34,732 nucleotides of DNA, taken from the NCBI GenBank assembly GCA_020851115.1, contig JADZDJ010000162.1:1-34732 (forward strand), written 5' to 3'. Below the pieces are notes generated by a model. That model saw nothing but the letters and a program-made list of their open reading frames with translations, made no database searches and had not been told where the DNA came from. Made by a program: the position numbers and the translations under genes. Source of the DNA: Pirellulales bacterium. GTDB taxonomy: Bacteria; Planctomycetota; Planctomycetia; Pirellulales; JADZDJ01. This document shows positions 6,685-34,732 of the stretch, in pieces (position 1 is the first letter of the stretch; each line of letters begins with the position of its first letter).

Positions 6685-7704
6685 CTATTTTGTCTCGCGA
6701 TCTAACCGGACCCAATCGACGATCTCGCTCGCCACCTCGCCTGGCGATTTGTCTTCGGTATCGACAATCAGATTCGCACACTCCTGATACCACGGCTCGC
6801 GCTGGCTGAGCAGCAATCGAATCTCCGCCATTCCGCCGGCGCCGGTTAGGTTCGGCCGACGAGCCTTGGTGGCGTCATCTCCAGTGATTCGTCGGTGCAA
6901 CGTTTCCGGCGCTGCCTGCAACCAGACGACGGCACGATGCATTGTACACAATGTCGCGCGATTTTCGGCACGCAGGACCACGCCGCCTCCCAACGCCAAT
7001 ACTGCTTGCTCCAGTAATATCAATTCGCCCAGTACCGCACTCTCCAAATCGCGAAAGGCAGCCTCCCCTTCGTCGGCGAAAATCGCCGCGATCGTTTTGC
7101 CGGCACGGCGTTCGATTTCGTCGTCGGCGTCGATGCACGACCAGCCCAGTTTTTCGGCAACCAACGGCGCAACCTTCGTCTTGCCGCAGCCGCGATAGCC
7201 GATCAAAGCGATCGACGAAAGGCATGGGTTTGCCGCAACGGACTTGGCAACCGCCGCCAGCGCTGCTTGGCACGTTTGGCCCACTGCGCGCAGCTTAAAT
7301 TTTCGCTGCACTCGATCGACAGGCTCGATATCGATTTCCAATCGTTCCGGCGGCAGGCAGTGCTCAACGCGGTCAGCCCACTCGATAAATGCCCATCCTG
7401 GGCGGGTGAAGTATTCCTCTGGGCCTAGTGCCAGAAATTCGTCTTCGTCGCGCAGCCGATAGACGTCAAAATGAAAGATCGGCACTCGCCCTGAGTATTC
7501 GTGGATCAGCACAAAGGTCGGGCTTGCCACATTCCCTGATGCGACGCCCGCAGCATCCCCCACGGCTTGCACGAGCCGCGTCTTTCCCGCCCCCAGTGGA
7601 CCAATCAGCGCTATCACCGTGCGCGGCGGCAACGATGCTGCCAAAGCACGACCTAACCGTATTGTCAGCGATTCGTCACCCGGTCCGATTGTAAGCTCGT
7701 TCAT
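6685..7704 (-). CDS. TsaE-shikimate kinase fusion protein
   Basis: Two P-loop enzymes lie in one 339-residue frame. Residues 1-~145 match TsaE, the ATPase of the threonylcarbamoyl-adenosine (t6A37) tRNA-modification complex: Walker A GPLGAGKT (35-42), SPTFVLIHEY (61-70), HFDVYRL (78-84) and FIEWADRV. Residues ~163-335 match shikimate kinase (AroK/AroL): Walker A GYRGCGKT (169-176), shikimate-binding DADDEIERRAG (192-202), the GGG loop (239-241) and a lid with RRPNL (282-286). Both sets of key residues are intact, so both activities are plausible. The domains are joined by a short alanine-rich linker. The gene lies 21 bp downstream of aat on the same strand, so the two probably share a transcript. 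It is convergent with the histidine kinase gene. Confidence 0.93.
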   Translation of the reverse strand: MNELTIGPGDESLTIRLGRALAASLPPRTVIALIGPLGAGKTRLVQAVGDAAGVASGNVASPTFVLIHEYSGRVPIFHFDVYRLRDEDEFLALGPEEYFTRPGWAFIEWADRVEHCLPPERLEIDIEPVDRVQRKFKLRAVGQTCQAALAAVAKSVAANPCLSSIALIGYRGCGKTKVAPLVAEKLGWSCIDADDEIERRAGKTIAAIFADEGEAAFRDLESAVLGELILLEQAVLALGGGVVLRAENRATLCTMHRAVVWLQAAPETLHRRITGDDATKARRPNLTGAGGMAEIRLLLSQREPWYQECANLIVDTEDKSPGEVASEIVDWVRLDRETK

Positions 7705-31700: not shown

Positions 31701-32999
31701 CTATTTGCTGCCGGCGGCGGCCGTGTCGCCGCGCAATTTGCTTGCCAGCGCGTAGCTGATCCGAGTGAGTTCTTTTTCCAGCCTAAGGTTGTCCTCGTAA
31801 ACATCTCGCAATTTCACGCCGATCGCTTGGAGTTCCTCTTCGAGTGCTTTGACGTGAGCCTTCACACGTTCGCTTTCCGCCACAAACCGGGCCTTATCGC
31901 TGGTAAGCAGCTTTTTCTCCTGACTGCGGAACGCCAAGTCGGCATCAACCTTTTTCTTCGCCTCTTGAACGATCGCCAATTCGCCACTCGTCTCCCCGAT
32001 CTTTCTTAACTGCGCGCCGATGCTCAAGTTCAAGTCGCGATACTGTCGCAGATAGTCGCGGAGCGAGCGACGATAAACCTTGTCATTCCCTTCGACCGGC
32101 GCTACATCTCCGGCGGCAATCCGTTCTTCGGCTGACTTGGGGTCGAGAATCAACTCGGCCCCTTCCGGCACGGTCACGGATTCGGCTTTCTCGCCTGCGC
32201 CAATGGACACTTCAAAGCTCTTCAGCGCTTTCACCCTCCGCCAAACATGTGACGCGTCGGTTTCACTGCCATCTGGCGCAGCACCGTCTTTGGCAAATTG
32301 TTGTTTGACGTCGTTGGGGACATCCGCCGAAAACAGGGCCATTCGCTGCGCTGGGGCCAACTCCGCATACAAATCGTAGCTGTCGGTCGGCATGATCTCG
32401 TAGAGCCACAGTGAACGATTCTTTCGCTGAGCCAAGCGTTTCGAGTCGTTGGGCAAGAGAGGCAACACGGGCGCGAGAGCCAGATCCTGACCATTCACTT
32501 TCGCGACCTCGAATTCACCGACAAACTGACCGCCTTTGTCGGCAGGTAATGCATCGAAGACGAACAAGATTGTCTTTTCGAGAATTCCGTGTGCGGCGGG
32601 CTCGACCTTGACCTGAAGCGTGCCATCGGCGCCGACATTAACGTCTTGCGCCTGAAACCAAATCCGCCCCCGGCCCTGCATGGCCGTTTCAACTCGGCGT
32701 CGCCATTCGGCAAGACTTGGTTCGATCCACTGATGTTCGGCAGCGTCGTATTTCCCTTCGCGAAGTTGCTCGATCTTCTTTTCTTCCTGATTGACTTCCA
32801 ACTCGAATTTCGCAATCTCGCTTCGCCAGCCTTGCTGAATTCGCAAGTTTTTCGCCGCGAGAAAGAAAAAAAGCGTGCCAAGCAGCAGGAACAGTGTCAC
32901 CAACGTGATGTTTTGCCACCTCCAGTTTTCGCGGCTCATCACGACGAAAACAATGCCGACTAGCACAATCACGCCGCAAGCTATCAGGGCAGTCGGCAT
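31701..32999 (-). CDS. Membrane-anchored coiled-coil hypothetical protein
   Basis: The product is 432 residues from ATG 32999. Two N-terminal membrane segments (~2-22 and ~31-49) lead to a short charged helix (EVNQEEKKIEQLREGK). A soluble mixed region (~75-320) includes a beta-rich part with VFDALPADKGGQFVGEFEV. A C-terminal coiled coil (~330-425) contains EKKLLTSDKARFVAESERVKAH and ELTRISYALASKL. No family is recognised. The frame continues upstream to 33188 with another hydrophobic stretch, so the start is uncertain. It could be an envelope scaffold. It is convergent with hemP, ten bases apart. Confidence 0.7.
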   Translation of the reverse strand: MPTALIACGVIVLVGIVFVVMSRENWRWQNITLVTLFLLLGTLFFFLAAKNLRIQQGWRSEIAKFELEVNQEEKKIEQLREGKYDAAEHQWIEPSLAEWRRRVETAMQGRGRIWFQAQDVNVGADGTLQVKVEPAAHGILEKTILFVFDALPADKGGQFVGEFEVAKVNGQDLALAPVLPLLPNDSKRLAQRKNRSLWLYEIMPTDSYDLYAELAPAQRMALFSADVPNDVKQQFAKDGAAPDGSETDASHVWRRVKALKSFEVSIGAGEKAESVTVPEGAELILDPKSAEERIAAGDVAPVEGNDKVYRRSLRDYLRQYRDLNLSIGAQLRKIGETSGELAIVQEAKKKVDADLAFRSQEKKLLTSDKARFVAESERVKAHVKALEEELQAIGVKLRDVYEDNLRLEKELTRISYALASKLRGDTAAAGSK

Positions 33000-33190
33000 A
33001 GGAACGATATGAAAAGGGAAGAGATATCCAGCTAGCAGCATTGAAGCTGCCGAGGTTGGGCCTTGAACTGATGCTATCTTCTGACGGCTTAACGGCTTGC
33101 AGCGAAGAAAACAGTACAAATCGATGATAAGCAGGGTAAACGGGGCTGTCAAGAAAGCAAGGCGGGGTAGTTTGTAGGGCCAATTCACTA

Positions 33191-33240
33191 GAATCGTTCA
33201 AGTCTGAACGTTTTTATCCCGAATCGTTAAAGGCCGAACG
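33191..33240 (+). promoter_or_regulatory. Two operator-like 20-bp repeats upstream of the MarR-like gene
   Basis: GAATCGTTCAAGTCTGAACG (33191-33210) and GAATCGTTAAAGGCCGAACG (33221-33240) match at 16 of 20 positions and start 30 bp apart, about three helical turns. Each is an imperfect palindrome with arms of the type ATCGTT...AACGWT. They lie ~100-150 bp before the GTG of the MarR-like gene, where autoregulated MarR operators are normally found. Confidence 0.6.
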
Positions 33241-33338
33241 ATCGGCACAACCGCGATCGTTCCGCGATTTGAAGCCCACACAAAAGGTTCTCGTCACCTT
33301 TCGCCGCGTAGTACGCCCCCTCGGATAGCGCCATTTCA

Positions 33339-34732
33339 GTGCCTGAATCTGCCATCTCCACCGACAACCGCACAAGCTCAACCACCACCGACGCTTCTTG
33401 GCGCTGGCTTGAGGTCTTTGAGCGGTTCTTTACGTGTGCGCGCCAAATGCGGCGAGCTCTGACGGATTGCACCGAGCGGCACGGATTGAGCGATGTCGAA
33501 CTATCGATGCTATCGCATTGTTTCCGCAGCGGTGAAGTTGGAATGAGTCAAGTCGAGCTTGCCGAGGCAACGAGCCTCTCAACGGCGCAAATCAGCGGCA
33601 TGGTCGAGCAACTGCGTGCCCGCGGGCTGATCGCGGGCTGTCGGGATGCGAATGACCGGCGGCGACAGATTTGGCAGATCACCGCGGCAGGACGCGATTT
33701 GTTGAACGGCGTGCTGGCCGACTTACACGGGCTGGCCGAAAGGCTGTTGCCATTTTGGAACGATCAGGCAAGCCAGACCATCGAACGATTGACAGAACAG
33801 TGCGTTGGTCAACAGCACCATCGCCCAACTCGCACCCCTGAGAAATCAAGCTCTCATCGGTCGGCCAAGCCGATGCTCCGCGTGATTAGCTCCTTGGTCA
33901 TTCTGCTAGCATGTTGGTCCAGCGGATGTACGCGGGCCTATTTTCGCAAGTGGGCCGACAACGAAATTTACGACTTGGTACGGGAGAAATCGCAAGACTC
34001 GCGCTGGCCGCTGAACGACTACACGATCAATATCGACCCGCGCTCGCGGATGTACGATCCATCCTGCCCCGACTTCGAGTTGGAGCCCCCCGACGATCCT
34101 GCCGCCTCAAAACTCATGAAGTGTGTCGACGGCATGCGCGGCGACGCCTGCTGGGATTGGTACGGCGATACTCCCTTTGCCCAGAACCCGAATTGGGACG
34201 CCTGCCTGCCGCGGAATGAGCGCGGAGAAGTTGTCGTCGATCTGACGCAGGCCGTCCAGTTAGCGCTGCTCAATTCGCGCGATTATCAACGCGAGTTGGA
34301 GCAACTCTACCTGTCGGCGCTCGATGTGAGCTTCGAGCGGTTCCGCTTCGACGTGCAGTTTTTCGGCAACAATAGCACCGCCTACGCGGTCGCTGGACCC
34401 ATGGCGCCAGGCGCGGCCGGAAGTAGTTCGAGCTTGCTCACCAACAATACGTCCTTCCAAGCCCATCGGATGTTCGCCAGCGGCGGACAATTCATGGTGG
34501 GGCTTGCCAACTCGCTCGTCTGGCAATTTTCAGGCTCGAACAATCAATTTTCCACAACACTGCTGGATTTCAGCATGTTGCAGCCGCTCCTGCGCGGAGG
34601 CGGGCGTGCTGTCGTCATGGAGCGATTGACGTTGTCCGAACGCGTTCTGCTGTACAACGTGCGGGCCATGGAGCGCTACCGCCGCGGCTTCTTTACGCAG
34701 GTATTTGCCGGCAATAACCCCAGCGACGGCCC
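33339..34732 (+). CDS. MarR-type HTH fused in frame to a TolC-like outer-membrane channel, partial at right edge
   Basis: A single frame from GTG 33339 runs to the window end without a stop (464 codons so far). An in-frame TAG at 33309-33311 rules out a longer start. Residues ~15-165 are a winged-helix MarR-like domain: LTDCTERHGLSDVELSMLSH, MSQVELAEATSLSTAQISGM as the HTH, and GLIAGCRDANDRRRQIWQIT as the wing. A Pro/Ser/His linker leads to MLRVISSLVILLACWSSGC (ATG 33873), a lipoprotein signal with a lipobox. TolC-like sequence then follows, with LTQAVQLALLNSRDYQRELEQLYLSALDV and later LRGGGRAVVMERLTLSERVLLYNVRAMERYRR. Either this is a true fusion or a second start at 33873 yields a separate lipoprotein channel. 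No good ribosome-binding site is visible at either start. Confidence 0.75.
   Translation, partial: MPESAISTDNRTSSTTTDASWRWLEVFERFFTCARQMRRALTDCTERHGLSDVELSMLSHCFRSGEVGMSQVELAEATSLSTAQISGMVEQLRARGLIAGCRDANDRRRQIWQITAAGRDLLNGVLADLHGLAERLLPFWNDQASQTIERLTEQCVGQQHHRPTRTPEKSSSHRSAKPMLRVISSLVILLACWSSGCTRAYFRKWADNEIYDLVREKSQDSRWPLNDYTINIDPRSRMYDPSCPDFELEPPDDPAASKLMKCVDGMRGDACWDWYGDTPFAQNPNWDACLPRNERGEVVVDLTQAVQLALLNSRDYQRELEQLYLSALDVSFERFRFDVQFFGNNSTAYAVAGPMAPGAAGSSSSLLTNNTSFQAHRMFASGGQFMVGLANSLVWQFSGSNNQFSTTLLDFSMLQPLLRGGGRAVVMERLTLSERVLLYNVRAMERYRRGFFTQVFAGNNPSDG

Follow-up and report, generated by a model that had tools for sequence, protein, structure and literature searches.

The window analysed here, a 34,732-nucleotide stretch of DNA from a Pirellulales bacterium, is the whole of contig C162 (JADZDJ010000162.1, assembly GCA_020851115.1). 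At its right-hand end lies a forward-strand frame that contains no stop codon from a GTG at 33339-33341 through to the end of the contig (33339-34730). No other usable start opens the MarR frame, whose nearest in-frame stop upstream is the TAG at 33309-33311, and the Shine-Dalgarno sequence of this GTG is weak (-3.3 kcal/mol). The first part of the frame encodes a MarR domain (33381-33809, + strand, residues ~15-157) with a complete fold. Residues 48-109, the core at 33480-33665, match Pfam MarR_2 with an E value of 3.6e-9 (37.1 bits against a cutoff of 27), and the fold predicted for residues ~15-157 matches crystal structures of the MarR family, MepR being the top match (Foldseek E 2.9e-7). 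The winged helix with flanking dimerisation helices that characterizes the family is present, together with the invariant DRRR of the wing. Prediction of the entire window piece gave a confident structure for the MarR half only.

The MarR domain is followed on the same strand by a linker (33810-33872), without the stop codon and the Shine-Dalgarno sequence that relatives have here, and by a signal peptide segment, MLRVISSLVILLACWSSGC (33873-33929), which begins at the ATG at 33873 and carries its lipobox cysteine at 33927-33929. In the window frame, a net positive charge precedes the hydrophobic stretch of this segment. The lipobox reads SSGC in the window and SIGC in a second fused genome described below (G192); the signal and the cysteine are conserved in relatives and are internal to both fused frames. 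The remainder of the frame (33930-34730, + strand) encodes the N-terminal part of an outer-membrane efflux protein. This truncated piece alone gave no match to Pfam OEP, because it is truncated; OEP (PF02321) is matched by the full-length channel relatives and by the G192 fusion. The part that follows the signal shows ~40-60% identity to proteins of ~1000 aa found in most genomes of the order, the channel part (P0001) being matched in 317 of 396, and on this identity to full-length relatives it is assigned to the OMF/TolC family. Pfam, the fold match and the identity to relatives bear out the domain reading of the earlier note, made from the letters alone, of a MarR winged helix, a lipobox signal and a TolC-like channel in a single frame. 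A chance open frame was rejected, both halves being conserved proteins in the same frame, and so was stop-codon reassignment, since the frame contains no stop codon to reassign.

The earlier note had called for an extension of the sequence to the right, and this is probably supplied by another contig of the assembly, C237 (3023 bp). It begins at the homologous residue (RRGGVFGGAGL...) and encodes the remaining 656 aa up to a stop (L089:1052-3022, minus strand), so that the contig break falls inside the channel gene. The gene is thus probably whole, with ~1120 codons, the joining of C162 to C237 being inferred from homology and not from overlap.

A MarR profile was searched against 396 genomes of the window's own order, Pirellulales, and hits were counted at E values below 1e-23 (the next being at 3e-18). 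A MarR of the window type was found in 61 of these genomes. In 59 of them the MarR frame is short (137-279 aa); it is longer only in the window (473 aa, ended by the contig) and in G192 (1149 aa). The junctions were read in 32 relatives with separate genes, where the channel gene directly follows the MarR gene, whose frame is almost always the one that is a base ahead. At more than half of these junctions, the end of the MarR gene and the start of the channel gene share 4 nt (NTGA), and the last MarR codons, often RGAA*, contain a strong Shine-Dalgarno sequence (GAGGTG, GGAGG) just 5' of the channel start. In another subgroup of relatives, the stop is followed by a start 17-20 nt further on. 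A stop/start overlap with the Shine-Dalgarno sequence in the upstream gene is the usual layout of translational coupling (PMC6728339). In the relatives, the channel is a lipoprotein made from its own gene, and many of them carry it without MarR, including G021, the closest channel relative. Two separate genes are therefore the usual and, judging from this comparison, probably the ancestral state, which means that the window frame arose by merging.

A possible trace of how this might have happened is found at the junction itself. A TGA at 33883-33885 (+ strand), in the T+1 frame, overlaps a GTG at 33882; the frame that it closes ends in ..RCSA*, where relatives have ..RGAA*, so that it may be a remnant of the ancestral NTGA overlap. 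With a stop codon in such an ancestral-like setting, a single indel, whether an error or a fresh mutation, could explain the window frame. The fusion in the window does look like the product of a linker indel, either in the organism or in the assembly; the codons used in the linker favour neither frame. Were the indel one of sequencing or assembly, the organism would have an ordinary two-gene operon, and G192 would be a separate, real case. The T+1 frame, which is open for ~33 codons up to the TGA at 33883 and produces a GTGA overlap, has the offset seen in relatives, and the assembly is a draft of 304 contigs that breaks within the same gene. On the other hand, the assembly is 98.8% complete, the other long genes of the contig that were tested are intact, as is the 656-aa remainder on C237, and a single indel leaves the missing Shine-Dalgarno sequence unexplained. 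There is, moreover, a second fused genome. We consider an artefact unlikely, though a rival to be taken seriously.

This second genome, G192, belongs to a different family and carries a complete frame of 1134 aa that matches both MarR_2 (4e-12) and OEP (8e-9). Its MarR ATG is preceded by a strong Shine-Dalgarno sequence (-12.9 kcal/mol). The stretch from the MarR domain to the signal core contains neither ATG nor GTG, just one poorly placed TTG, and the linker has no stop in a neighbouring frame that could end MarR right before the signal. To judge from the sequence, a true fusion is the best reading of G192. Neither fused junction has the stop or the internal Shine-Dalgarno sequence, and the overlap of the first gene's stop with the second gene's start, seen in relatives, is found in neither the window nor G192. 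Thus, unlike the termination-reinitiation pairs (PMC6728339) whose layout the relatives show, the two fused genes have lost the stop, and the coupling with it. The earlier note had suggested looking for the same fusion in other genomes; G192 is the one that was found, no further long fused frame having been detected in its family (119 genomes) or in a class-wide sample (397 genomes). It had also held that clearly separate orthologues, with this gene alone fused, would reduce the case to an error or a one-off mutation. Separate orthologues are indeed the rule, but the window is not alone, since G192 is fused too. Two fused cases out of 61 argue that the merging of these genes really happens. 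In a tree, the fused genes stand apart, G192 lying among the separate-gene relatives of its own family (f18), although a topology joining it with the window is not rejected by the AU test (p 0.127). Some rows of the tree labelled as lacking MarR do carry it, having entered under a second locus id, and solely the placement of the fused rows was used. On this placement, the fusion probably arose independently in two lineages.

The earlier note had offered three possibilities: a membrane-tethered fusion, the loss of a stop codon, and an internal start at 33873 giving two proteins from one frame. The comparison with relatives favours the merging of separate genes, while the internal start is weakened by the absence of the Shine-Dalgarno sequence found in relatives. 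If the ATG at 33873 were also used, an ordinary channel lipoprotein would be made, as it is from a separate gene in relatives, and the long product would be minor or degraded. This codon is the sole plausible internal start, and its position would suit a normal signal peptide whose n-region is positive. Strong Shine-Dalgarno motifs are described as few in several groups, Planctomycetes included (PMC6728339). The codon has no clear Shine-Dalgarno sequence in front of it (-3.3 kcal/mol, random 20-mers giving ~-2.8). The window has no stop that would permit termination-reinitiation, and G192 has no such start. Two proteins from the one frame are, in our estimation, rather unlikely.

The region upstream of the window's MarR frame contains two operator-like palindromes on the + strand, GAATCGTTCAAGTCTGAACGTTT (33191-33213) and, 30 bases further on, GAATCGTTAAAGGCCGAACGATC (33221-33243). 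The first agrees with the consensus AATCGTTCAAGTCNGAACGATT at 20 of 21 positions and overlaps a promoter-like box, so that the window has what appears, from its sequence, to be the palindrome near its own promoter that is expected of the MarR family. At least 16 of the 21 consensus positions are matched upstream of MarR in 31 of 34 genomes from ten families; no good copy was found upstream of MarR in G192. With up to 3 mismatches allowed, no genome has more than one or two copies, and the two copies in the window are the sole sites in its 5.2-Mb genome. The right half of the palindrome tracks the presence of MarR (7.3 versus 3.5 of 8, p 4.5e-10). The left half, AATCGTTNAAGTC, was considered as the MarR operator and rejected, as it also precedes channel genes that lack MarR, and unrelated genes too; more probably it belongs to a promoter box. 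A two-box element, AATCGTTNAAGTC-N14/15-CCGAA, lies at 33192-33213 of the window and before channel genes in ~50 relatives, with and without MarR. It is also found before a FliG-like gene (L101) and before a small MNIATALPLGIGAAS protein (L115-L117, L120), and a search for it gave 29 matches in 12 genomes versus 3 for a reversed control. It is faintly like a sigma-28 promoter, from which it differs in its longer spacer. The putative MarR operator seems to sit in the spacer of this promoter, which fits repression by blocking of the polymerase.

The window gene keeps the core residues of MarR and the operator-like sites. This bears on the possibility that a recent, real indel merged the two genes into a functionless product, in a lineage that is losing MarR or the channel. 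Only 2 of 61 genes are fused, and many relatives, G021 among them, have the channel without MarR; yet G192 retains both domains intact along 1134 aa, and a functionless merger appears distinctly improbable. The reading as a functional regulator-channel chimera draws support from G192 and is plausible for the window.

The explanation that we prefer, and to which we give about an even chance, is that an operon encoding an autoregulated MarR repressor and a lipoprotein channel of the OMF/TolC family has turned into a single gene, with MarR tethered at the membrane or released there by cleavage at the lipobox. The ribosome would make one continuous MarR-channel chain, the MarR domain of which would dimerise in the cytoplasm and bind its own operators. 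The internal signal segment, with positive charge before the hydrophobic stretch, would insert with its N-terminal side in the cytoplasm and export the channel part. The repressor could then be held at the inner membrane, in an arrangement like that of ToxR and CadC; as far as the order of the segments tells, the product is probably a MarR repressor tethered via the signal segment of the channel. Alternatively, signal peptidase II could cut at the lipobox and give, in a 1:1 ratio, a repressor with a C-terminal membrane tail and a channel. It counts against this explanation that an uncleaved chain would have to reconcile a dimeric MarR with a trimeric channel, and that G192 has no good copy of the operator. 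The broader proposition, that a single repressor-channel chain evolved at least twice and that export of the channel or cleavage at the lipobox sets where and whether MarR binds its own operator, is doubtful.

Like MepR and MexR, the MarR repressors of efflux operons, the window protein has a complete MarR fold, a palindromic operator-like site and an efflux neighbour. MepR and MexR are free cytoplasmic dimers, whereas the MarR domain in the window runs on into a secreted channel. With the outer-membrane lipoproteins of the OMF/TolC family (OprM/NodT-like, Pfam OEP), it shares a lipoprotein-like signal and, in full-length relatives, the OEP domain; it differs from OprM/NodT-like proteins in the length of ~1000 aa with a long middle region, and in its signal, which is internal, ~180 residues from the N-terminus. 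The order of a cytoplasmic winged helix, a single membrane segment and a periplasmic part would be that of ToxR and CadC, a likeness of topology for which no homology is claimed: these proteins have an OmpR-type winged helix and a periplasmic sensor, in place of which the window has a MarR domain and an efflux channel, and it does not belong with them. No MarR-channel fusion was found in the literature that was searched, and we know of no described efflux system in which where the regulator sits depends on the export of the product that it controls. Should a single chain be produced, the biogenesis of an efflux channel would be linked to transcription via the location of the regulator. Even if this is merely a merged operon, genomes with no MarR, an overlapping MarR and a fused MarR form a natural series for studying the step from coupled to fused genes, and the relatives also offer a conserved operator-like site.

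The window contig carries a second unusual fusion. An intact frame at 6688-7704 (minus strand) joins a TsaE domain to a shikimate kinase domain, and their junction has neither ATG nor GTG. Among 24 sampled relatives, no match covers both halves, which are mostly found at different loci. This fusion is genuine-looking and was counted in favour of a real MarR-channel fusion. Closer to the MarR frame, a divergent gene at 31701-33188 (minus strand) encodes a membrane protein with no strong Pfam match; in G021, which has no MarR, a similar-looking divergent gene adjoins the channel gene. Downstream of a MarR-channel operon with separate genes, in another relative (G038, L086:923-2761, minus strand), lies a gene for a membrane-fusion protein of the HlyD/CusB type with an EF-hand motif.
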